Origin: Candidatus Zhuqueibacterota bacterium
GTDB lineage: Bacteria; Zhuqueibacterota; Zhuqueibacteria; Residuimicrobiales; Oceaniaggregativiventaceae
Direction: 5' to 3'
Assembly (NCBI GenBank): GCA_014728115.1
Contig: WJME01000100.1
Location: forward strand, 1-64,000
Length of the DNA: 64,000 bases
A program made the translations under genes and the position numbers. The notes under the pieces were generated by a model. That model ran no database searches. It saw only the letters and a program-made list of their open reading frames with translations, and was not told where the DNA came from. Shown here in pieces: positions 41,598 to 63,302 of this stretch. Every line of letters starts with the position of its first letter. Position 1 is the first letter of the stretch.

Positions 41598-42048
41598 CTG
41601 TTCGTCTTGTTCAAGCTGGCACTATAATCTAGCGGCAAAAACAGACGATTGCTGAAAAAATAATGAAAATGAGACATCTCTGACTCATCATGACGAGTTT
41701 AAGCCACAAAACAGAAATTCCCCTATTACAATTTTTGCAAACAAAAGCACGCATACACAACATGTGTTTGCCAATTATTTGAAAAAAAATTCATTAAATA
41801 GGCACTTATTGAAATTACTTTATTTAGAGGCACATTTGAATGATATGAACCCATTTGAAATCAATTACAGGGATAAAAAGAAAAAAATACGACAATATTA
41901 ATTTGGCATCAGATTTGCAAAAGGCGTCTTGAATGATATACTTGAAAAAAAGAGCATTATTGATTGCTGGGACGGGTAAAATGTTTGTACCGTGTGCAGG
42001 CATGTTCGGGGCGTCTTCCCAGAAACAACCTTAACCGATGGAGGAAGG
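41598..42048. other. Divergent intergenic region between operon B and the plus-strand secreted protein
   Basis: About 450 bp, strongly AT-rich from 41700 to 41900, with no credible gene. On the plus strand it holds a sigma-54-type promoter (41902-41918), three ATTTGAA copies upstream of it (41777, 41834, 41853) and a leader with possible stems. On the minus strand I see no convincing sigma-70 or sigma-54 promoter for operon B, although one must exist here or further in. Confidence 0.7.
41902..41918 (+). promoter_or_regulatory. Sigma-54-type -24/-12 promoter
   Basis: TTGGCATCAGATTTGCA: GG at 41904-41905 and GC at 41916-41917 with exactly 10 bases between them, as required for RpoN. Transcription would start near 41930, about 120 nt before the ATG at 42049. 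The core TGGCATCAnnTTTGC is also found ahead of operon A on the minus strand. Needs an enhancer-binding activator; none is encoded in this window. Confidence 0.72.
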
Positions 42049-45000
42049 ATGCGATCTATATCCTCACGTAAAAAGATTTTGTCGTGGTTTATGGGTACGG
42101 TCATTTTATTGTTTAATACTCATCAATTGACGTTTGCACAGGACAGTCTGGTTGTTATTGATGATCCCCTGACCAACCAATCCACACTCGGAGAGACGCT
42201 GGGCGGCACCTTTACTGCTGAAGGGTGGAAAACAACCGGATTTAATGACCGGATTGCCTATCAGGTCGGTGAACCGATTACATCCGGGAGAGCGACATTT
42301 GAAGCCAAGGGCTGGGATCGCTCTACAGACCCCTGGGATCCGAATCAAACTCACTTTTGGCATACTGTGTTTGGAATGTGGGATAATTCTTTCGAAAAAT
42401 ATGGCCTAAAGGCCAAATTCAACCCCTATAAATGCCAGTTATGGGTTGCCAGTCATGTGGATGGTGAGAGATGGAAAAGCGGCCATGTGGTCTTGCGTCT
42501 GAATGTCCATGCCGTGACAACCGGTTCTGATGATGATCCCAATGCCTGGGAAATCATGTCCGAACACGAATATCAGTGGGACAAGGATGAATGGAACACA
42601 AACGAACTGGTCTGGGGCAATGGTCGTATGACCTGGACGATCAATGGTATTAAAGCTGTGGATATCGATTACAGCTCCTCAGGTCATGAATATGTTCCCA
42701 ATGATCATGTGATCTGGCTGGGACGAGCATCGGATCATTACCGCCATTTTTCCTGGTTACAAACGCCGATCAACTGTACCTATCGAAATTTAAAGGTCGT
42801 GCGATATGTTGACCAGAGCGCACCGGAAGTTATTGCGCATTCACCCAATAATGGCGAGACAGAGGTTCCCTTAAACCAGGAAGTCGTGATCGAATTCAGC
42901 GAGCCCATGGATCAAAGTCTCATTCCCTCAGCACTGAATATTACTCCTGCCATCAGTGGCACGATGACCTGGAGCGGAAATTCACTCTATTACGTGCCTT
43001 CGGGTCCCCTGAATGCAAACACGACTTATACCGTCTCCCTCGATACTTCTGCAAGGGATATGAACGGCAATGCTCTGGCTAGTCCGTTGGAATTTTCATT
43101 TACCACGACATCCACCACCATTGCATCACAGGTGGAACGCTATGGAATCTTTGAAATCGACCTCTATAGCTCGACAGCGTCCGGCAATCGATACAAAGAT
43201 GTTTGGGTCAAGGGGGTATTTCAGGGTCCAACAAAAACGATAGAAATTGCCGGTTTCTGGAATGGAGAGGACCAATGGATCGTTCGAATGGCCCCTACAG
43301 AAATCGGTACCTGGACGTACACGATTACCTCCTCTAATTCCCAATTAACGGCATCAGGATCCTTTGAATGTATTCCTTCCGACCACAAGGGATTTCTCAG
43401 GGTAAATCCGGATTATCCCTACACGTTCATGTACGAGGATGGAACGCCCTGGATGTGGAAAGGAGAAACCTCATGGCGAGCGGTGACCAACTCGATCTCT
43501 TTCGAATCCCGTTTCAAGCCTTATATCGATTTAAGGGCATCTCAAGGTTATAATGCGGTTCAATGGATCAATTTTTCTTATATTAACGGAGATGCTTTTT
43601 GGCAAAATGAAGGTGGACCCGCATTCGAGCTCCATAACACCGGAAAAAATTATGACAAACTGAATCCTGATTATTATAAATGGGTGGATAAACGCGTCGA
43701 ATATGCCCTGTCCAAAGGGATGGTACCGGTTATGTTATTTACCTGGGCTCAGGAATATTTAAAATTAACCCAGGATCAATTCGATCATTATATCAGATAT
43801 ATGGTCTCGCGTTATGCCGCGTATAATATCATCTGGATCATCTGTGGTGAATATAATGAAATCTATGCAGAGAGCAACCTGACATGGGATGTATGGAAAC
43901 GTCATGGCCGGACGGTCAAAGAAGCTGATCCTTACGATCATTTGACCAGTCTGCATCCCACCGGAAGGACCAGCTCTTCGGAATTCAAGTATGATAGCTG
44001 GATGGATTTTATTATGCAGCAATCCCCCTATTATTACGACCACATTCAACGGGATCGCAAATACAACATGCCTGTGGTCAATGGTGAATATGCGTATGCC
44101 GGCTATCACCCGGATGAAAATGTGAGATACGGAGCCTGGCAAATCATTACAGCGGGCGGATTTTTCACTGCAGGCTTTTTCTCCACCTTTGCCCCGGATA
44201 AAGGTGGATGGGATATGAGTGCAAACATGCAACAACAACTTGAATTGCAATTTCTGTTTGATTTCATGGAAAATACACGCTGGTGGGAGATGAATCCACA
44301 TGACGAATTGGTCTCCACCGGTCATTGTCTTGCACTGCCCGGCGAAGAGTATATCATCTATAGCAGAGAAGGCGGGAGTGTAGATCTGGATTTATCGCAC
44401 GTTACCGGCTCGATTCCCATGGAATGGCTCAATCCTCGAGAATTCACCTATTCAGAGCGTACAGACCTGCAGGGTGGCTCGACTGTCACCTTGACACCGC
44501 CATTTTCAGGTGACTGGGTTCTGCATGTCGGCAATGGTGTAGCCCAGGATACGATTCCGCCCAATGCGCCGGGGAATCTCACGCAGACCAATCAAACGAT
44601 GAATACCATCTCCATGACCTGGGATGAGCCACTGCCGGCAGAGGACGGAGATACGGCTTCTGAATATCGCATCTATCGGGACGGACAAGCCATAGGCAAG
44701 GTCGCCCAGAATCAGTTTACGGATTATGGATTACAAGCAGATAAATCGTATACCTATGAGGTCTTTGCCATCGATGATCGTCGCAATGAAAGCCTGACAG
44801 GGGTATCTGCGACATTCAATACCATTGCAGATACGGAAGCTCCGGTGATTACCGGCTTGCAGACGCTATCGCGGACAGATCTGCAGATCACCTTTAGCGA
44901 ACCTGTAGAGCAAACGTCGGCGACAACCCTATCCAATTATCAGATTAGCCCTTCTATTTCCATTTCGGCAATCGAACTGCAAAATGATCTGAGAACGGTA

Positions 45001-45594
45001 AACCTGATAACAGGCTCTCATACCGAAGATGTAATCTATACCTTGACGGTGAACAATATCAAAGACCGGGCGACCAGTCCGAACACCATTGCAGCAAACA
45101 CACAAAAGACGTACAAATTCGAGTCGGTTCTAAAGATATCGCAAATCAACCGGACAGGATATCAGGTTGACACCCTCAAGGTTGGGGAAAAGATGTATCT
45201 CGACAGAGAATTCGTCTTTACCAATGTTCCGCCGGATATCCTGGATGCTCTGATGATACGCACCGCCAATGATGACAAATTATCGACAGCCTTTCCGTTT
45301 CTCACCTTTCAGATCAATCGTCAGTCAGAGGTCTTTATCGGATATCAGAGCAATCTTCCCATTCCTTCCTGGATGCAGGAACAGGGATGGACTGACACCG
45401 GACTGATGATTCAATCCGATGATGATTCCGGTCAAAAAGTGTATGTAAAAGAATTTCAGACAGGTACGGTAGAGTTGGGCGGAAACTTTGGAGCGACCAG
45501 TAGTAGCATGTATACTGTATTCGTAAAGCCCGTAGATGCGGGAGACGTCGATGCGCCTTTGGCTCCCACCGGACTTGTCATTCGACCCTTGTAA
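42049..45594 (+). CDS. Large secreted multidomain DUF5060-DUF4038 glycosidase-like protein
   Basis: 1181 residues from the ATG at 42049, which follows GGAGGAAGG. Signal peptide with cleavage near TFA-Q (30). Domains: concanavalin/LamG-like (about 32-253), Big_5 Ig-like (about 257-353), DUF5060 (about 361-440), DUF4038-type TIM barrel (about 445-790) with E601 in WIICGEYNE and E680 in VVNGEYAY as likely acid/base and nucleophile, fibronectin III (about 835-925), a second Ig-like domain and a C-terminal beta domain. Ends in DAPLAPTGLVIRPL, like the first strand of another FN3. DUF4038 proteins are glycoside hydrolases or relatives; the substrate here may be the polymer made by the flanking operons. 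Only plus-strand gene in the window. Confidence 0.88.
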   Translation: MRSISSRKKILSWFMGTVILLFNTHQLTFAQDSLVVIDDPLTNQSTLGETLGGTFTAEGWKTTGFNDRIAYQVGEPITSGRATFEAKGWDRSTDPWDPNQTHFWHTVFGMWDNSFEKYGLKAKFNPYKCQLWVASHVDGERWKSGHVVLRLNVHAVTTGSDDDPNAWEIMSEHEYQWDKDEWNTNELVWGNGRMTWTINGIKAVDIDYSSSGHEYVPNDHVIWLGRASDHYRHFSWLQTPINCTYRNLKVVRYVDQSAPEVIAHSPNNGETEVPLNQEVVIEFSEPMDQSLIPSALNITPAISGTMTWSGNSLYYVPSGPLNANTTYTVSLDTSARDMNGNALASPLEFSFTTTSTTIASQVERYGIFEIDLYSSTASGNRYKDVWVKGVFQGPTKTIEIAGFWNGEDQWIVRMAPTEIGTWTYTITSSNSQLTASGSFECIPSDHKGFLRVNPDYPYTFMYEDGTPWMWKGETSWRAVTNSISFESRFKPYIDLRASQGYNAVQWINFSYINGDAFWQNEGGPAFELHNTGKNYDKLNPDYYKWVDKRVEYALSKGMVPVMLFTWAQEYLKLTQDQFDHYIRYMVSRYAAYNIIWIICGEYNEIYAESNLTWDVWKRHGRTVKEADPYDHLTSLHPTGRTSSSEFKYDSWMDFIMQQSPYYYDHIQRDRKYNMPVVNGEYAYAGYHPDENVRYGAWQIITAGGFFTAGFFSTFAPDKGGWDMSANMQQQLELQFLFDFMENTRWWEMNPHDELVSTGHCLALPGEEYIIYSREGGSVDLDLSHVTGSIPMEWLNPREFTYSERTDLQGGSTVTLTPPFSGDWVLHVGNGVAQDTIPPNAPGNLTQTNQTMNTISMTWDEPLPAEDGDTASEYRIYRDGQAIGKVAQNQFTDYGLQADKSYTYEVFAIDDRRNESLTGVSATFNTIADTEAPVITGLQTLSRTDLQITFSEPVEQTSATTLSNYQISPSISISAIELQNDLRTVNLITGSHTEDVIYTLTVNNIKDRATSPNTIAANTQKTYKFESVLKISQINRTGYQVDTLKVGEKMYLDREFVFTNVPPDILDALMIRTANDDKLSTAFPFLTFQINRQSEVFIGYQSNLPIPSWMQEQGWTDTGLMIQSDDDSGQKVYVKEFQTGTVELGGNFGATSSSMYTVFVKPVDAGDVDAPLAPTGLVIRPL

Positions 45595-54035: not shown

Positions 54036-55274
54036 TCAGTTATTCCTCACGGCTTGCTGTACAACCCATTTTGTCTTGTTCAGATAATCCTCATAACTGT
54101 ATTGCTTTTCTGCCAACCGGGCAGCTTTTCTGGCCAGCTCCTGTGCATATTCAGGTTCTTCGAGAACTCTTAAAATACCTCTGGCAAAAGCCTGGGGAGT
54201 GATTGCCGTGAGTTCTGAAACACTGGGATTCAAAATCTGTGTATGAGTCACATGATCAGTTGCAACAATGGGCTTTTGTGAACGCAGATAAGAATATATC
54301 TTCAAAGGGGAATTATTACCTTTGAGCCGTGGCGACACCAGAACATCGGCCAGATCGATCAGAGAGGGAATTTCCTGGGGTTGAACAAATCCAGTAAAGA
54401 TAAATTGATTGGACACGTTCAAGTCTTTTGCCTTTTTCTGGTATGATTTTACCTGTTCTTCACTCCCCCCGGCAATGAGAAAGCGCAACGTTTGCTTTCT
54501 AGAGTCCGGGAGATGGGTCGCTGCCTCGAGGAGCAGTTCTATACCCTGGTAGGTTTCCAACGTGCCATAATAGAGAACAATCTGTTTATGTTCTATATCG
54601 AATCTCTTGACGAGTGCCTTTTGATTGGCTTGTTGCGGTGGGAAGACCAGGCTATTGTCAGCCACATTTTCAATCAGAATACTCTTTGTATCCGGAAACC
54701 GCTTTTCGACAAACGCTTGTAACTCGGGGCAGATGGTAATGACCGCGCTGGCAGACAGGATAGAACGTTCTTCCAATCGGTCAAAAATCCCGGTGATAAA
54801 CCGGGATTTGGTGTATTTGAAATTACTCAGTTGTTGAGGAAGGGAAGAATGCATATCATAGAGATGGGGGACATAAAATTTTTCAGACAGATTCACTCCC
54901 CAAAAAGCCGCTTCCTCATGAGTGTGCAGCAAATCATACTTGTTCTGTTCAAGCAATTGGATGCTCTTTCTCCATAACCCGAGATCGAGCCATATTTTCG
55001 TTTTCGAGGGGCCGATTTTGACTTTCTTCACCCCCGGGATACCCGCAGAGCGATGAATTTTCAAGCCCGGGATTTCGATATCCTGACCAATGGGATAGGT
55101 AGCCAGGTCGATTCTATGCCCCAAGAGGCTGAGAGCTTTGATACGATGCAGCACGCTAAACGGGGTCCCTCGCGGGGAGAACCATGGCTGTGGAGCAATC
55201 ATAAGAATGCGTAATGGGCGTTCCATTTGCAAATCACTCGAAATATTTTTCAGTTTTCCATTATTCTGCGCCAT
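54036..55274 (-). CDS. GT4 family glycosyltransferase
   Basis: About 412 residues from the ATG at 55274 (MAQNN, GGTGG upstream); ATG at 55226 (MERPLRI) is an alternative nearer the fold. PQPWFSPRGTPFSVLHRI is the typical opening of this GT4 branch. Donor domain: VLYYGTLETYQGIELLL and SPLKIYSYLRSQKPIVAT, where Ser replaces the usual first glutamate. Overlaps the sugar transferase gene by 14 nt, so it may add the second sugar of the repeat. Confidence 0.86.
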   Translation of the reverse strand: MAQNNGKLKNISSDLQMERPLRILMIAPQPWFSPRGTPFSVLHRIKALSLLGHRIDLATYPIGQDIEIPGLKIHRSAGIPGVKKVKIGPSKTKIWLDLGLWRKSIQLLEQNKYDLLHTHEEAAFWGVNLSEKFYVPHLYDMHSSLPQQLSNFKYTKSRFITGIFDRLEERSILSASAVITICPELQAFVEKRFPDTKSILIENVADNSLVFPPQQANQKALVKRFDIEHKQIVLYYGTLETYQGIELLLEAATHLPDSRKQTLRFLIAGGSEEQVKSYQKKAKDLNVSNQFIFTGFVQPQEIPSLIDLADVLVSPRLKGNNSPLKIYSYLRSQKPIVATDHVTHTQILNPSVSELTAITPQAFARGILRVLEEPEYAQELARKAARLAEKQYSYEDYLNKTKWVVQQAVRNN

Positions 55275-56718
55275 AACCCACCAAGACAACAATAAATGTT
55301 TTAAAAAAGATACGAACATCTAAAAGCAATGACCATCTATCGATATAATCCAAATCCATCTTCATCCATTCATCGAACCCGATCTTATTACGGCCGCTGA
55401 CCTGCCATATACAGGTGATTCCCGGTTTCAGGCTTAATCTCCGGCGTTGCCAAATCTGATAATTTTCCACTTCTGAAGGCAGCGGAGGTCTTGGGCCGAC
55501 AATACTCATATCGCCCTTTAGTACATTGATAAACTGAGGGAGCTCATCTATACTCGTTTTGCGCAAAAAGTATCCGATCGGCGTAATACGCGGATCGGCT
55601 TTCATTTTAAATACCGGCCCGTCCATTTCATTTTTGGTCAGCAATTCGGTTTTACGCGCTTCGGCATCAACCACCATAGAACGGAATTTAAACAAAGTAA
55701 ACTTGCGTCCTTTTAAACCCGCGCGGGTTTGTTTGAAAAAAATGGGTCCCTTTGAGGTGACCTTGACCAAAATAGCGACAATAAGCATCAAGGGAGAGAA
55801 AAAAATCAATGCAGTCAGTGATACGACGATATCCATCAAGCGTTTGAGAAAAAGCTGCCACTCTTTGGCATGAAACGTTTCGAATTCCAAAAGCGGAAAC
55901 CCATTAAAATCGGTTTGCCGGGCCCGTGCGATATGTAAATTATACAAATCGAGAGACAGAGAAGTACTGATCCCGACTTCTTCACATGCCAGTATAGCAT
56001 CTTCAATACGGTGCAACCACATTCTCGGAACCACGAAAATAACCCGGTCCACAACCAGATGGTTGATCAGGAATGGGATGTCCTGAATCCTGCCGATGAC
56101 GCGATGGCCATCCACCTGTTTACCATACATATCATGATCATCATCCACCAACCCAACAATTGCGAGCCCCCAATCCTTATGCAGGGTAACCGCTCGAATA
56201 AATTCCCTGGCTCGCTTTCCTGTACCCACGATGAGCAAATTTTCCTGATTATATCCCTTAGAGTGGACCACATTGAGCATATAGAGCAATACCCGTTTTT
56301 CCAGCAAGAGCATCAAATAGGCGGTAATGGTATATACCGAAAAGAAGAGACGGCTGGCAAGCTCGAACTTGAATAAAAAGATAAAGCTACCACATGCAAT
56401 AGATGCCCAAATGCTGGAGACGAATATAATCCAGGCCTGCTTTCTAAATGACCGAAGCCGAAATCCGCGATAAACATTGTTTACGGAAAGCACCGAAATC
56501 CAGATAATGGGAAAACCAATAAACATCATCCAGTATTTTGAAGCAAAATAGATAAAGCCGGACAGGGTCGGGCCAATGGCATAAGCTTTAACGCTCAGCG
56601 AAGTCATGGCACGAATAAATTCATCAAAAAAGTAGGCAACTGGAAAGGCCAAGGCTAGAGCGATAAAATCAAAGCCCTTCATGATTTTGCCCAAAAAGCG
56701 TTCTCTGTCAGATAACAT
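55261..56718 (-). CDS. Polyprenyl glycosylphosphotransferase (initiating sugar-1-phosphate transferase)
   Basis: 485 residues, WbaP/WcaJ type. Five N-terminal helices, a CoA-binding-like domain (LLIVGTGKRAREFI, about 165), then the catalytic C-terminus with KRLMDIVVSLTALIFF, GPIFFKQTRAGLKGRKF, LFKFRSMV, DELPQFINVLKGDMS and VGPRPPLPSE. Transfers sugar 1-phosphate to undecaprenyl phosphate and so starts the repeat unit. Only initiating transferase in the window. Confidence 0.95.
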   Translation of the reverse strand: MLSDRERFLGKIMKGFDFIALALAFPVAYFFDEFIRAMTSLSVKAYAIGPTLSGFIYFASKYWMMFIGFPIIWISVLSVNNVYRGFRLRSFRKQAWIIFVSSIWASIACGSFIFLFKFELASRLFFSVYTITAYLMLLLEKRVLLYMLNVVHSKGYNQENLLIVGTGKRAREFIRAVTLHKDWGLAIVGLVDDDHDMYGKQVDGHRVIGRIQDIPFLINHLVVDRVIFVVPRMWLHRIEDAILACEEVGISTSLSLDLYNLHIARARQTDFNGFPLLEFETFHAKEWQLFLKRLMDIVVSLTALIFFSPLMLIVAILVKVTSKGPIFFKQTRAGLKGRKFTLFKFRSMVVDAEARKTELLTKNEMDGPVFKMKADPRITPIGYFLRKTSIDELPQFINVLKGDMSIVGPRPPLPSEVENYQIWQRRRLSLKPGITCIWQVSGRNKIGFDEWMKMDLDYIDRWSLLLDVRIFFKTFIVVLVGYGAE

Positions 56719-56765: not shown

Positions 56766-57737
56766 CTATTTTTTATCTGGTACTAGATGGTGCACATTTG
56801 CGTAAAACCACTCTACAAACTTTTCAATACCAGCTTTGACAAGAGTTTGCGGATCATAATTTAAATCTTTTCGTGCCAATGTTATATCTGCATATGTAAT
56901 GGGGACATCACCGGGTTGCTCTGGTTGAAAATCGAGTTTTGCCTTTTTGCCCATGGCTTTTTGCAACAATTCGATCAGGTCCAACAGCTCGATGGTTGAT
57001 GATTCACCTAAATTATAAATGTGATATCCATTGCAGCATTCAACGGAAGCCAGGATGCCCTGAATGATATCGTCGATATAGGTATAATCTCGTCGACTGT
57101 TTCCTTTGCCAAACACCGGGATAGGTTGATTTCGATAAATCATTTGTGCAAACTTGTGAATCGCCATATCCGGTCTTTGCCGCGGCCCATAGACGGTAAA
57201 AAAGCGAAGTCCGGTCGCTTGAATGCCATATAGATGATGATAGGTATGGGTGATCAATTCAGTCGCTTTTTTCGTCGCAGCATAGGGAGATATGGGATGA
57301 TCCACAAAATCATTTTCGGAAAACGGTACTTTTTTATTGGCCCCATAGACCGATGATGAGGAGGCATAGATAAATTTTCCCACCTGATATTTACGACAGC
57401 ACTCGAGCAGGTTCATGGTTCCCTGAATATTCACTTGAGCGTATAGCCCGGGTTGTTGAATAGAGGGTCGAACACCAGCCCTGGCAGCAAGATGGATCAC
57501 GGCATCATAGCTGTTTTGCTGAAACAAGGTTTCCAACAGCGTGGTATCCAGTATATCCCCTTTATAGAGTGTAAAGCCAGTATGACCTTCAGATTCTTTG
57601 ATATTGTTATATTTAATCGCTGGTGAATAGTAATCGTTAAAATCATCTAAACAGTGCACCACATTACCACGGGCTAATAAATGTTCTACAAGGTGGGAAC
57701 CAATAAAGCCAGCGCCCCCTGTAACCAGCAATTTCAT
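56766..57737 (-). CDS. UDP-glucuronate 4-epimerase-like SDR
   Basis: 323 residues. VTGGAGFIGSHLVEHLL binds NAD; LAARAGVRPSI is the segment typical of UDP-glucuronate epimerases; SSSSVYGANKKVPF and YAATKKATE hold Ser, Tyr and Lys; FTVYGPRQRPDMA is also typical. Expected to interconvert UDP-GlcA and UDP-GalA for an acidic repeat unit. Lies 11 nt after the kinase gene. Confidence 0.88.
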   Translation of the reverse strand: MKLLVTGGAGFIGSHLVEHLLARGNVVHCLDDFNDYYSPAIKYNNIKESEGHTGFTLYKGDILDTTLLETLFQQNSYDAVIHLAARAGVRPSIQQPGLYAQVNIQGTMNLLECCRKYQVGKFIYASSSSVYGANKKVPFSENDFVDHPISPYAATKKATELITHTYHHLYGIQATGLRFFTVYGPRQRPDMAIHKFAQMIYRNQPIPVFGKGNSRRDYTYIDDIIQGILASVECCNGYHIYNLGESSTIELLDLIELLQKAMGKKAKLDFQPEQPGDVPITYADITLARKDLNYDPQTLVKAGIEKFVEWFYANVHHLVPDKK

Positions 57738-57748
57738 TCTTGTTCTCC

Positions 57749-60088
57749 TTAATATTGATAGTAACTGTATTGATCTTGAACCAGAGTTGAATCCGTGCCA
57801 TTGACAACGACACCCACCAGATTTACAGGCACCTGCCGAAAGACTTTAATTTTTTCTTCGGCCTGATGTTTGTTGGTCATTCCAGATCTGGCGACGATGG
57901 CGACTGCATCGACCTGAGTGCCGAGGACCACAGCATCAGTTGCTGCTTCTAACGGCGGAGTGTCAAAGATGATAAAATCGAATTTGCGGCGTGCCTCTTC
58001 TAAAAACCGTTTCATCTGAAAAGAGCCCAAAAGCTCCGATGGATTGGGCAGCATTTGACCGCAACTGATCACCGAAAGATTTGGAATATGGGTAGTCTGT
58101 ACCACCGATGAAAGAGTTGCATTGCCGCTGAGGTAATTGGTAAAACCGGGACTCTTTTTGATGCCAAAGGTATTGTGAAGCACTCCCCTGCGAAGATCAG
58201 CATCCACAAGCAGAGTATTCGAGCGTTGTTGTCCCATGATGATCGCCAAATTACTTGCCGTAAACGATTTGCCTTCTTCCGGTCCGACGCTGGTCAATAC
58301 CAGTGTTTGAATGGCTTTGCTTTTCTTAGAAAACAACAATTGCGTCCGCAACGCCCGATAAGACTCTCCTATGGGTGTGGGAGAATAATCATGTGTGACC
58401 AACTGCCGGTCGATCTGCTTTACTTTTTCATAATCGTGATACTCGGGAATATCTTTAAAGTCCACAATAGGAATCGTGCCGATAATATCTAATTCGAATA
58501 TTTTTTGCATTTCGTCCAGGGTACGGATTTTTCGATCTGTGATATCGATTAACACGGATATTGCGACTCCCAAAAAGAATCCCAGTGCCGCCCCCATGAT
58601 GATTTTGCCGCTCTTATCCGCATTGATGGCGGCACGTGGTGGCAGAGCCGGATCCTGAATCACAATATTACCGCTGGCCACCGATTCTTCTACAGAGCGG
58701 GTATCGATTTCAGCCAAAACCTGATTATAGATCTGTTCGGCAATATCCAGACGTTTTTGGAGCTCGTTGAGTTTTGATTCTTCGCTGGGAAAGGTTCGTA
58801 ATTTTGATTCCAGGCGTTGTTTTTCATCTTTGAGATCGCTCTCCTGGCGGGTCAATGTATTGAGGTGTTTTGAAGAGAACGAGACGATCTCATCCTGAGT
58901 ATCTTCGATTTTGGTGGCCAACTCCGCGACGGGTTCATAATCTTCGGAATAGCGATCCAAAAGATCGTCATATTGGTTGAGTTGATCTTTTAGAGTTTCG
59001 CGCAGAATCGCAAGGTTGGGCTCATTGGCCATATCTTCAAAGTTGGCTAATTGCGTTACGATATATCTGCGGAATTGAACGGGATTTGTCCCCTCTGGTT
59101 TTTCATCCAGTTTTTCCAACAAAGTTTTAAGATTTGTGCGTTTTCTGGGCAACAACTCTAGCTGGCGTTCTACAGCCAAAAGTCGTTCCGTGACCGATTC
59201 TTTTTCAAATTCCAGTGAGAGCGGGTACCGGGTATTGAATAGCCTCATCTCTTCCTCTGCGCGCTCCAGGTTGCTCTTTGCCGATGCAAGGCGTCGTTGC
59301 AAATTTTTCATATGACTGGACTGATCGCGAGACTTTAGTTGCAACGCCTCTTCGACATAGGCTCTGGCGATCCGATTCAGTTCATCTGCCAGAGTTGTCG
59401 GATCTGTTCCCTGCAGCGTCAAACGCATGGTCGAGCCGGTACTGCTGATATCGACCTGGACTTTGGATATTTGCCACAGCGCTTTGGAAAAATCGCGAAT
59501 ACGAAATAAAATTTCAGCATCTTTGGCCACGAACTGTGGATTGAGCTGAAAGGAAAAGCCATTTACGGTGCGATAATCTTCGATCACATCCCAGACCAGC
59601 GCACTATCCAACAGCGTTGTTTGCCCGTCGCCGCGGGTCGTGTACAATCGATAGGCCCCGTCTTCACTCGTGGTCAACCTGTATTCGCCAACGACAGGAT
59701 CCTTGTCCGTAGAAAAATCCTGAAAAATATCTTCGTGATGCGTCCCCACCGTGCTTTGATCGATCTTGAGTGCCAGTCCCAGGCGAGCTGCGACCTGTTC
59801 CTTGAAATTTCGGGTACGCATTTCGACCTGGCGCTCGCGGCTCAAAATTTGCCCCTCGGAATCATCAAATTCGACGGTCTTTAAAAACGCCTGGGTTTGA
59901 TAAATAGGGATCTCTTGTTTCGTGCGATAATAAAAAAACAACGCAAATACAACAGTTAAAATTCCCACGAGCCAAATACGTTTTAACAAGCCACGAAGGT
60001 ACTTGCCAAAATCGAACTGAGACTCTGGCTCTTCATCAAAAGCCGGAGGAGGGGGAGGTGCCTGTGTATAGTTGAGTTCTTCCATCAT
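57749..60088 (-). CDS. Wzc-like polysaccharide co-polymerase / tyrosine autokinase
   Basis: 779 residues. Proline run at 11-15, first helix about 38-53, a long periplasmic Wzz-type domain with coiled coils (about 250-460), second helix about 496-515, then a BY-kinase: Walker A GPEEGKSFT (K607), A' LLVDADLRR (626-634), B FIIFDTPP (705-712). The tail ends in a tyrosine cluster (Y774, Y776, Y777, Y779). Controls chain length and export together with the Wza-like protein encoded one base upstream. Confidence 0.95.
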   Translation of the reverse strand: MMEELNYTQAPPPPPAFDEEPESQFDFGKYLRGLLKRIWLVGILTVVFALFFYYRTKQEIPIYQTQAFLKTVEFDDSEGQILSRERQVEMRTRNFKEQVAARLGLALKIDQSTVGTHHEDIFQDFSTDKDPVVGEYRLTTSEDGAYRLYTTRGDGQTTLLDSALVWDVIEDYRTVNGFSFQLNPQFVAKDAEILFRIRDFSKALWQISKVQVDISSTGSTMRLTLQGTDPTTLADELNRIARAYVEEALQLKSRDQSSHMKNLQRRLASAKSNLERAEEEMRLFNTRYPLSLEFEKESVTERLLAVERQLELLPRKRTNLKTLLEKLDEKPEGTNPVQFRRYIVTQLANFEDMANEPNLAILRETLKDQLNQYDDLLDRYSEDYEPVAELATKIEDTQDEIVSFSSKHLNTLTRQESDLKDEKQRLESKLRTFPSEESKLNELQKRLDIAEQIYNQVLAEIDTRSVEESVASGNIVIQDPALPPRAAINADKSGKIIMGAALGFFLGVAISVLIDITDRKIRTLDEMQKIFELDIIGTIPIVDFKDIPEYHDYEKVKQIDRQLVTHDYSPTPIGESYRALRTQLLFSKKSKAIQTLVLTSVGPEEGKSFTASNLAIIMGQQRSNTLLVDADLRRGVLHNTFGIKKSPGFTNYLSGNATLSSVVQTTHIPNLSVISCGQMLPNPSELLGSFQMKRFLEEARRKFDFIIFDTPPLEAATDAVVLGTQVDAVAIVARSGMTNKHQAEEKIKVFRQVPVNLVGVVVNGTDSTLVQDQYSYYQY

Positions 60089-60748
60089 TTAGTTTCTACG
60101 ATAATTTAGCATGGTAAAATAGAAAATGAGCATCGACATCCCAAACTGGACATATCGCATCACCGTATCAAACGTCAGGCGATTTACTCGCGGAGCGAGG
60201 ACTTCATCACCGGATTGCAAGCCCAATTCATAGAGAGAACTGGCATCATAAAACGCCTCATAAAAATCGCTGTAAATAATTTCTTCCTGTCGCATAATAT
60301 ATATTTCTTCCAGGCGTGAAAGACCGGTTACACCGCCGACTTGTTCCAGCATTTCCCACGCAGACATATTGAGATCAAAGCGGTACAGGCCCGGTTTTCC
60401 AAAGCCCCCGCGAAACGACAGACGAATCAGCGGTACGACAATGACGCGCGGATCTTTGGCAAAGGGTTTGAATTTTTCCTGCAGCAATTTAGAGATCTCT
60501 TCTGCATTCAGATTATTGATCATCACGCGTCCGATCGAGGTCAGATGGATCTGTCCGAAACCGTCAACGATAAATTCCTGGTCATGAAACGTAGAGATAA
60601 AGCGGTCATTTTCGACCTGGTACAATCCATCATATACATACAGTCGGACAGCGTCTCCGGGGCCGACACGAATACCTTGTTGAGCTGGTATTTGTGCAAA
60701 TGTACTCGTTAGCAGTAAACAAACAAGAGCAATCCAGCGTAGCATCAT
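60089..60748 (-). CDS. Short Wza-like polysaccharide export protein (SLBB)
   Basis: 219 residues from the ATG at 60748, with AGGAG 7 nt ahead; the longer frame from 60802 is unlikely. Signal peptide ending near TFA-QIPA. Poly_export motif VGPGDAVRLYVYDG, then INVDGFGQIHLTSIGRV-like VDGFGQIHL, an SLBB-type segment with GGFGKPGLYRFD, and a late hydrophobic stretch (FGMSMLIFYFTML). No lipobox cysteine. Much shorter than E. coli Wza (about 380), so another outer-membrane part may be needed. Confidence 0.88.
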   Translation of the reverse strand: MMLRWIALVCLLLTSTFAQIPAQQGIRVGPGDAVRLYVYDGLYQVENDRFISTFHDQEFIVDGFGQIHLTSIGRVMINNLNAEEISKLLQEKFKPFAKDPRVIVVPLIRLSFRGGFGKPGLYRFDLNMSAWEMLEQVGGVTGLSRLEEIYIMRQEEIIYSDFYEAFYDASSLYELGLQSGDEVLAPRVNRLTFDTVMRYVQFGMSMLIFYFTMLNYRRN

Positions 60749-60758
60749 CACATTTCTC

Positions 60759-61454
60759 CTATCGGGATCTATAATAGCGAAATCGTTTACCTCTGGTCTC
60801 AAGGCCTAGCCGGCGCAATATCGAACGTAAACGGAAAAAACCAACTTTGACAAATCCAAATCGCGGTGAATAGAGATACCGTTTAATAGACAGGGTACCA
60901 AAACTCGGATTCTCGACAACGATTTTTTTTATTTTTTCGTTCAAAGGCAGTTCTGAATCGGTTAAGGGTGTCGCAGAGGCAGGAGGTGGTTTGGGGGATT
61001 CCTTTATCGTGGGTTCAACCCGAGTCAGGGTTGGAGCAACAGAGTGTGCGGCTTGGCTGCCGGGTGAATACATTGGCTCTTGTACATCAATAGCACGGCA
61101 GAAATCAAAATCATCGATGGCTTCTTCCAGGGAATCATAGTTTGTTAAAATTCGGTTGAATTCCAACATTTCGAAAACCTCTTTAACCTCATCGGTCATT
61201 TCAATGATTTTAAGATCCCCCCCCTTTTCCCGTAACCCACGAATTTCTCCGACAAAAACGCCCCAACCAGCACTACTGACATATTGCACAGCCTGAAGAT
61301 CAATAATGAAATTGATTTTTCCTTCTTGAATAAGCTGATAGAGTGTTTGTTGCAATTCGGCAAATGTCGTTGTATCGATATATCCGCTGATTTGCAATAG
61401 CGAGATATCGTTCAGTGCGCCGACTTGGTCAATTTGTATAGAAATGCCTTCCAT
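60759..61454 (-). CDS. STAS domain protein fused to a transposase-type helix-turn-helix domain
   Basis: 231 residues from the ATG at 61454 (TTG at 61463 is also open). Residues about 2-117 form a STAS (anti-sigma-factor antagonist) domain; in YVSSAGWGVF, Ser61 aligns with the phosphorylated serine of SpoIIAA/RsbV. After a proline-rich linker (about 145-165), residues 168-231 read IKKIVVENPSFGTLSIKRYL ... VRxIL-like RLRSILRRLGLETRGKR, which matches the HTH found in IS3/IS481 transposases. First gene of operon A, 10 nt before the exporter gene. Likely a phosphorylation-switched regulator of the locus; DNA binding is inferred. Confidence 0.78.
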   Translation of the reverse strand: MEGISIQIDQVGALNDISLLQISGYIDTTTFAELQQTLYQLIQEGKINFIIDLQAVQYVSSAGWGVFVGEIRGLREKGGDLKIIEMTDEVKEVFEMLEFNRILTNYDSLEEAIDDFDFCRAIDVQEPMYSPGSQAAHSVAPTLTRVEPTIKESPKPPPASATPLTDSELPLNEKIKKIVVENPSFGTLSIKRYLYSPRFGFVKVGFFRLRSILRRLGLETRGKRFRYYRSR

Positions 61455-61550: not shown

Positions 61551-61581
61551 GATCAATAGGGGAGACCAGACGAAATCAAGA

Positions 61582-61596
61582 GCAAAGTTGATGCCA
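61582..61596 (-). promoter_or_regulatory. Sigma-54-type -24/-12 promoter of operon A
   Basis: On the minus strand TGGCATCAACTTTGC: GG at 61595-61594 and GC at 61583-61582 with exactly 10 bases between. Transcription should start near 61570, about 115 nt before the STAS gene. Core identical to the promoter at 41902-41918 in 13 of 15 positions. The -24 box overlaps a 12-bp palindrome. Confidence 0.75.
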
Positions 61597-61605
61597 CTCG
61601 AGTGG
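61594..61605. repeat. 12-bp perfect palindrome overlapping the -24 box
   Basis: CCACTCGAGTGG, fully symmetric, shares its left end with the -24 GG of the operon A promoter. A dimeric regulator bound here would block RNA polymerase. It may be an operator. Confidence 0.5.
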
Positions 61606-61720: not shown

Positions 61721-61746
61721 AAAAAACCGTCCATCGATGAACGGTT
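61721..61746 (-). terminator. Rho-independent terminator of glgA
   Basis: On the minus strand AACCGTTCAT / ATGGACGGTT (one G-T pair) form a 10-bp stem with a tiny CG centre (61746-61725), followed directly by a T tract (to 61721). It lies about 70 nt after the glgA stop. Confidence 0.8.
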
Positions 61747-61814: not shown

Positions 61815-63302
61815 TTATTTTCGTTTACCTGAAACGATTTTTTGGTACATTTTGACATAGTCTTCAGCTGCGGAATCCCATGAGAAATTTTGTTTCATCG
61901 CCCTTTTGACAATCTTTAACCAGGATTTATCATCGCCAAAAAGAGCCAGGGCGCGATCGATGGTCGCCAACAGGGCGGTTTCATCATAGTTATCAAACGT
62001 AAAGCCAGTACCCTTGCTGGAATCTTTATCTATATCAATAACAGTATCTTTGAGTCCCCCGATATTGTGCACAACAGGCAGTGTCCCATATCTCAGACTA
62101 TACATCTGATTCAGACCGCACGGTTCAAAGCGAGAGGGCATTAAAAACATATCCGTTCCGGCCTCGATAAGATGCGCCAGTTCCTCATCGAACTTTACAA
62201 AGAGAGCCAATTTGTCGGAATTTTCCTTGCTGAGGGTCTCCAGCATATTTTGATAGTGTGGATCACCGGTTCCCAGGATCACCAGTTGTACATTTCTTTC
62301 AAAAAGCTTGTCTTTGATTTTTTCGATCAGATCAAACCCTTTTTGCTCGGTAAGTCGGGAAATCATTCCGATCACGGGCACTGATTCATCAAAAGGTAAC
62401 TTGGCTTGTTTTAAAAGAGCTCGTTTGTTTTCGAGTTTATCCTGCAGATTATTTACGGTATAATTAACAGGGATCATGGCATCTTTTTCAGGATCCCAGA
62501 TCGTATAGTCGACTCCATTGAGAATACCGGTTAAATCTTTTGAGCGTGCTTTGAGCAATTTATCAAAGCCGGATCCAAACTCTGGGGTTTGAATTTCTTT
62601 GGCATAGCTAGGACTAACCGTTGTGATGGCATCGGCACTACCGACTCCCAGTTTGAGGAAGCTGGCCTGACCATAAAACTCCATTTCGCCCCCTTCTTTT
62701 ACCAGGGCTTGAGGCAGTCCAATGTCCTTGATCGACTCGGGAGCAAAATTTCCTTGAAAAGCGAGGTTATGAATAGAGAGCAAAGTTGCTGTATCGGAAA
62801 AAAACTTTTCATCTCGATATTCGTTTTTTAAAAGCCATGGGATCAGCGCGGTCTGCCAGTCATTACAATGGATAATATCCGGTTCCCAGTGCAAGAGTTT
62901 TGCAGTTTCTAAAGCTGCCCGGCAGAAAAAGGCAAATCGTTCGGCATTATTGGAAAAGTCTCTACCTGTCTTTTGATCGACATAAAGATCTTTTTTATCA
63001 AAAAAAGGCTTGTAATCGAGAAAATAGACTTGAACTTTGGTATCGGGGATAAATGCTGATTTTGCCGAGGCAATGTGCTCTTTGGCTCCCATTTTCACAG
63101 AGAGCTTGCGCAGGCGGATCACATCCCGCAAAACATATTTTCGTTCGCTGATAGAGCCATATTTGGGCATCATCACTCGGACGTCGTGGCCCTTTTCGAA
63201 AAGGGATTTAGGCAAGGCACTTGCCACATCCGCCAGACCACCGGTTTTAGCAAAGGGATCCACTTCGGAAGCCAGAAAAAGTATTCTGAGCCGATTCTTC
63301 AT
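61815..63302 (-). CDS. glgA: Glycogen synthase (ADP-glucose type), GT5
   Basis: 495 residues, the usual GlgA length. KTGGLADVASALPKSL (K19) is the ADP-glucose binding loop; IHCNDWQTALIPW, SIHNLAFQGNF, ITTVSPSYAKEI, GILNGVDYTIWDP and SRFEPCGLNQMYSLRYGTLPVV are all canonical GT5 motifs. Extends alpha-1,4-glucan from ADP-glucose in the cytoplasm. Separate transcription unit with its own terminator, so it is metabolically near but not part of the polysaccharide operon. Confidence 0.96.
   Translation of the reverse strand: MKNRLRILFLASEVDPFAKTGGLADVASALPKSLFEKGHDVRVMMPKYGSISERKYVLRDVIRLRKLSVKMGAKEHIASAKSAFIPDTKVQVYFLDYKPFFDKKDLYVDQKTGRDFSNNAERFAFFCRAALETAKLLHWEPDIIHCNDWQTALIPWLLKNEYRDEKFFSDTATLLSIHNLAFQGNFAPESIKDIGLPQALVKEGGEMEFYGQASFLKLGVGSADAITTVSPSYAKEIQTPEFGSGFDKLLKARSKDLTGILNGVDYTIWDPEKDAMIPVNYTVNNLQDKLENKRALLKQAKLPFDESVPVIGMISRLTEQKGFDLIEKIKDKLFERNVQLVILGTGDPHYQNMLETLSKENSDKLALFVKFDEELAHLIEAGTDMFLMPSRFEPCGLNQMYSLRYGTLPVVHNIGGLKDTVIDIDKDSSKGTGFTFDNYDETALLATIDRALALFGDDKSWLKIVKRAMKQNFSWDSAAEDYVKMYQKIVSGKRK

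Follow-up and report, generated by a model that had tools for sequence, protein, structure and literature searches.

A phylum-wide STAS protein with a transposase-type C-terminal domain at the likely head of a sigma-54 polysaccharide operon in Candidatus Zhuqueibacterota

The window, that is, the whole stretch of 64,000 nucleotides analysed (contig WJME01000100.1 of assembly GCA_014728115.1), encodes a STAS-domain protein of 231 residues, here called STASx1, between a glycogen synthase gene and a set of polysaccharide genes on the same strand. The features of this region, in the order of transcription, are the following.

61815..63302, minus strand: glgA (starch/glycogen synthase, PF08323), the upstream neighbour
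61725..61746, minus strand: intrinsic terminator-like site behind glgA, which separates it from the STASx1 operon
61594..61605, no strand assigned: perfect palindrome CCACTCGAGTGG, overlapping the -24 element
61581..61596, minus strand: sigma-54 -24/-12 box TGGCATCAACTTTGCT (exact pattern match), 126 nt before the STASx1 start codon
60762..61454, minus strand: STASx1, a protein of STAS domain, linker and transposase-type wHTH-like domain, 231 aa (open reading frame with translation)
61119..61412, minus strand: STAS domain, residues 15-112 (PF01740, E 2.8e-18; TIGR00377, 2.4e-17)
61272..61274, minus strand: codon of Ser61, the serine expected from the sequence to be phosphorylated, in the context YVSSAGWG (VSSAGW)
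60954..61100, minus strand: variable linker, residues 119-167 (in 62 orthologues, no column reaches 90% conservation)
60762..60953, minus strand: HTH_21/IS3-type wHTH-like domain, residues 168-231 (Pfam in relatives, hhalign, AlphaFold2, conservation)
60089..60748, minus strand: Wza-like polysaccharide export protein (PF02563, 1e-10), the first downstream gene
57749..60088, minus strand: Wzc-like chain-length/tyrosine-kinase protein (domain search and neighbour survey)
56766..57737, minus strand: NAD-dependent sugar epimerase/dehydratase (domain search)
55261..56718, minus strand: initiating sugar transferase (Bac_transf, WbaP-like; PF02397, 5e-71)

The STASx1 gene starts with the ATG at 61454 (MEGISIQI) and ends with the stop codon at 60759-60761 of the minus strand. 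The MEG[IL] start is kept family-wide in the orthologues, which agrees with this call. Its N-terminal domain scores 66 bits with PF01740 against a cut-off of 22.6, is also above the cut-off of TIGR00377 (anti-sigma antagonist), and has RsbV and SpoIIAA as the closest PDB sequences. In the SpoIIAA family, the phosphorylated residue is at the position of Ser58, which we take to be that of Ser61 in STASx1 after aligning it by hand with the known SpoIIAA sequence. All 75 STASx1 loci have the SSAGW motif, and so do all 16 loci of the paralogue STASx2. The STAS domain with a phosphoacceptor serine, which a sequence-only reading of this DNA had described, is thus borne out.

The surroundings of the gene are conserved along with it. 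Of the 75 STASx1 loci, 69 have glgA upstream and 71 have an export gene of the Wza type downstream; the loci without these usual neighbours are mostly contig ends or have weak-scoring neighbours, and three genomes without glgA retain STASx1-Wza-Wzc. A kinase homology noticed upstream of STASx1 in these three genomes came merely from a TPR protein, and no sigma or anti-sigma gene was identified among the conserved STASx neighbours. Because the terminator-like site stands between glgA and STASx1, the latter is likely the operon head. The sigma-54 box in front of it is one of two exact pattern matches in the window, against 0.23 expected. Boxes scoring at least 16.8 are found upstream of STASx1 in 36 of 73 loci (2.3% of dinucleotide shuffles) and upstream of STASx2 in 0 of 16; the consensus upstream of STASx1 in the window's own order is TGGCAYYAACTTTGCW. 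The earlier reading, which placed the gene first in a polysaccharide operon driven by sigma-54, is supported. The other exact match in the window (41904-41919, plus strand) is 72 nt before the start of 41992-45594, which encodes a 1200-aa protein with apiosidase-like, DUF5060, Big_5 and fn3 domains.

No conserved operator in the promoter region could be assigned to STASx1. The sequence-only reading had suggested the palindrome at the gene's own promoter as the binding site of STASx1; CCACTCGAGTGG does occur in the window, but the orthologues are without it, and its role as an operator is not supported for that reason. A second candidate operator, ACAATGTTTC, was also set aside, as in the window's order it adjoins an NtrC-type activator gene, before a sigma-54 box. 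The STASx1 sigma-54 box of other families in the class and the phylum is preceded by a tandem palindrome (type TGTTTCA-N3-TGAAACA, spacing 18 bp), for example in L177, L181, L220, L223 and L227. When the 82 genomes are searched with the tandem pattern, nearly all perfect matches fall at this place upstream of STASx1, and the reversed-pattern control has a single match. The tandem palindrome is absent from the window's STASx1 promoter. The same tandem palindrome is found in the window's order directly 3' of a response-regulator gene for a sigma-54 activator (NtrC-type; PF00158, E 2.5e-72; HTH_8) and before another sigma-54 box. Because of this position, it is most simply read as a candidate UAS of the NtrC-type activator. 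The tandem palindrome is likewise at the locus centre in L279, L282-L285 and L288, and in L279 a gene for 360-370 aa without Pfam match (175-1278) lies behind it and a sigma-54 box. In two genomes of one family (L192 and L193, about 1490-1710), the UAS and a sigma-54 box (TGGCATTGAATTTGC / TGGCATTGTATTTGC) precede a putative secreted protein.

The C-terminal domain was examined at the level of the single protein and of the family. In 62 orthologues, conservation reaches 90% or more in 14 of its 64 columns, and R224, R226 and R229-S230-R231 are invariant in STASx1, giving a terminal R-x-R-x-x-R-S-R. The C-terminus of the window protein alone has no useful Pfam match, HTH_21 included, and returns only a meaningless match to SAP. 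HTH_21 (PF13276) is above its curated cut-off of 28.1 in two relatives (G009, 29.7 bits; G012, 29.2 bits), with weaker matches in the STAS-HTH proteins of others. Similarly, hhalign aligns the STASx C-terminus over 59 columns with an IS3-type profile, built from 13 transposases of the same phylum (probability 93.6, P 2e-7); the best P among 30 column-shuffled control profiles was 0.089. The AlphaFold2 model of the domain has four helices (pLDDT 86). Its Foldseek search against the PDB gave no significant match, the weak ones including the winged helices of FapR and PadR/LmrR and the ISCth4 transposase, and searching the PDB sequences with the profile of the C-terminus gave none at all. The mean net charge of the C-terminus, over 62 residues, is +11 in STASx1 and +8 in STASx2, against -9 for the STAS domain; such strongly basic C-termini would fit nucleic-acid binding.

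Since the relatives' Pfam matches, the hhalign result and a homologue with two HTHs agree, the C-terminus is assigned to the HTH_21/IS3 type at family level, and by profile comparison that of STASx1 is related to the HTH_21 of IS3-type transposases. The search of residues 168-231 for a transposase HTH hence fails for the window protein taken alone and succeeds through its relatives' HTH_21 and hhalign. Likewise, of the phrase 'domesticated transposase HTH', the IS3/IS481 type stands at family level, and domestication may reasonably be presumed, in an event older than the diversification of the phylum.

The fusion is not peculiar to this genome. Of the phylum's 82 genomes, 81 have matches to the C-terminal profile. 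The named members of the STASx family are MAGs of candidate division KSB1/Calditrichaeota, and a contig profile scan was limited to close relatives, with KSB1-type MAGs and one STAS-only match; no description of the family was found in the literature searched, which was one paper collection. The paralogues STASx1 and STASx2 each form one side of a 100/100 branch, and their split is ancient. STASx2 lies directly 3' of a gene for a kinase/phosphatase of about 1200 aa in 15 of 16 loci, and obgE follows within 2.5 kb downstream in 11 of 16, often then dprA. In B. subtilis, Obg has a link to the sigma-B partner switch, so this neighbourhood of kinase/phosphatase, STASx2, obgE and dprA may be functional. 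The locus of kinase/phosphatase (HATPase-SpoIIE-doubleHTH-TPR), STASx2, obgE and dprA can be seen at L045:805-6214, L058:594-6813, L063:715-8245 and L049:3963-9731, and the window genome's own kinase-STASx2 locus is L002:1-3624. In G042, STASx2 (L051:4992-5631) is split into two overlapping reading frames by a frameshift or an assembly error, and the kinase gene beside it is also split.

The protein encoded before STASx2 combines an RsbW-type HATPase_c_2 domain, a SpoIIE phosphatase, a double HTH and TPRs; HAMP is weak in some members, and sensor/membrane segments were predicted by eye. In the kinase at L045:805-4443, the HATPase domain corresponds to about the first 140 residues. In its two best-scoring members, the double HTH is above the curated cut-offs of HTH_23, HTH_28, HTH_29, HTH_32 and HTH_Tnp_1, and in one of them also of LZ_Tnp_IS481. 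The second half of this double HTH aligns with the STASx C-terminus (hhalign of the kinase HTH against STASx2, P 1.6e-13), and the third match of the C-terminal profile falls inside the kinase/phosphatase in 10 of 10 genomes examined. In the window genome, the kinase gene is cut by the contig end and its match to the profile is weak. By these alignments, the kinase/phosphatase, STASx1 and STASx2 have one transposase-type domain in common. Its occurrence in both kinase and substrate suggests that it was recruited from a transposase ahead of the diversification of the phylum. In the kinase, the net charge of the domain is close to neutral (-1 to +4), and because this copy is non-basic the common domain could serve for docking. 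The kinase/phosphatase is a probable partner of STASx1 given the common HTH domain and its link to STASx2; the pairing is uncertain because several RsbW-like kinases are encoded per genome. The picture thereby goes beyond the earlier reading on three points: the fusion occurs throughout the phylum, a paralogue of it exists, and its probable partner kinase/phosphatase carries the same domain.

STAS partner switches usually work through sigma factors. We consider it only slightly better than an even chance that STASx1 is a CapS-type regulator that binds DNA and is switched by phosphorylation, composed of a STAS domain and an HTH_21 winged-helix-like domain; its DNA binding, its kinase pairing and its target are inferred. 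Ser61 would be phosphorylated by the RsbW-type ATPase domain of the kinase/phosphatase or by another RsbW-like kinase, and the phosphate would be removed by the SpoIIE domain of the former or another PP2C. Phosphorylation would alter the dimerisation of the STAS domain, and this in turn would change how the basic wHTH-like domain binds DNA, most likely at polysaccharide or related promoters. Transcription of the operon would be set by sigma-54 and its enhancer-binding activator, so that STASx1 would add a second control, via phosphorylation. More tentatively, the kinase/phosphatase and both STAS proteins may form a phylum-wide partner switch with one ancient transposase-derived HTH in common. 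STAS phosphorylation would then directly control the occupancy of DNA at exopolysaccharide loci and others, or else the pairing of these domains, without an intervening sigma factor.

The most serious competitor, though we give it clearly less weight than the CapS-type regulator, is a SypA-like post-transcriptional switch, in which STASx1 contacts the export machinery or another partner and its C-terminal domain serves for docking, for example by pairing with the same domain of the kinase, rather than for binding DNA. STASx1 occupies the place that sypA has, first in a sigma-54 polysaccharide cluster, and SypA acts in its unphosphorylated form at a level other than that of syp transcription (PMC4517449). 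The tie of STASx1 to Wza-Wzc in 71 of 75 loci, kept even without glgA, is consistent with such a role, as are the non-basic HTH of the kinase, a predicted membrane protein, and the example of VapS, a CapS-like protein that acts via protein contact. The C-terminal domain is nevertheless of a DNA-binding class and strongly basic in both STASx1 and STASx2, and CapS, with the same domain order, does bind DNA.

It is unlikely that STASx1 is an ordinary anti-sigma-factor antagonist acting on an RsbW-like anti-sigma factor and a sigma-70-type factor, with a C-terminal domain that gives only stability or localisation. The best sequence matches of the STAS domain, RsbV and SpoIIAA, and the several RsbW-like kinases per genome would suit this role; the retention throughout the phylum of a separate, conserved and basic HTH-family domain would not, nor would conserved neighbours among which no sigma or anti-sigma gene was identified. 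That the protein is a recent or decaying transposase fusion without function is highly improbable. In its favour, the window C-terminus has by itself no family match, but this explanation is already contradicted by the conservation data, namely the occurrence in 81 of 82 genomes with sequence and context conserved and frames open, and the two ancient paralogues.

A STAS protein with a DNA-binding-type domain, present phylum-wide at the head of the polysaccharide operon, makes direct DNA contact a testable answer to how SypA-like STAS proteins control polysaccharide. If the CapS-type regulation of STASx1 is true, the principle of CapS arose with a different DNA-binding domain too, and it serves housekeeping surface biology beyond immunity.

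CapS is a homodimeric STAS-wHTH repressor whose Ser54, the counterpart of the conserved STASx1 serine, is phosphorylated by a GHKL kinase, which breaks the dimer and releases the DNA (EMBO J 2026, PMC13373217). Like STASx1, it has an N-terminal STAS domain with a conserved serine followed by a C-terminal wHTH, and its kinase CapK is of the GHKL (RsbW) type with an HTH of its own, as in the predicted kinase partner of STASx. The wHTH of CapS is MarR/ArsR-like, whereas that of STASx is HTH_21/IS3-like. CapKS adjoins immune operons and responds to DNA damage, while STASx1 is vertically conserved throughout the phylum in a sigma-54 polysaccharide operon. Moreover, capK is directly upstream of capS, whereas STASx1 lies between glgA and Wza-Wzc, and the kinase upstream of STASx2 differs from CapK in having TM segments, a SpoIIE phosphatase and TPRs. 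STASx1 is hence best read as closest to the CapS-like STAS-wHTH proteins, with another HTH type, kinase architecture and setting.

In Vibrio fischeri, sypA is the first syp gene; its STAS-domain product is under the control of SypE, a kinase/phosphatase (PMC4517449, PMC10120452). The parallel with sypA drawn from the sequence holds, as STASx1 is likewise the first gene of a sigma-54-driven polysaccharide cluster, and control by a combined serine kinase/phosphatase is predicted for it. SypA, however, is a single STAS domain without the HTH_21-type domain added in STASx1, and SypE is a response regulator, whereas the predicted STASx kinase/phosphatase is encoded elsewhere, beside STASx2. RsbV and SpoIIAA share with STASx1 the STAS fold and the position of the phosphoacceptor serine, but they have no C-terminal HTH and work via an anti-sigma factor. 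Finally, the DNA-binding domain of IS3/IS481 transposases (HTH_21, HTH_32, HTH_23/28/29) is homologous to the STASx C-terminus and to the double HTH of the kinase; unlike these transposases, both STASx and the kinase are without the transposase catalytic domain.
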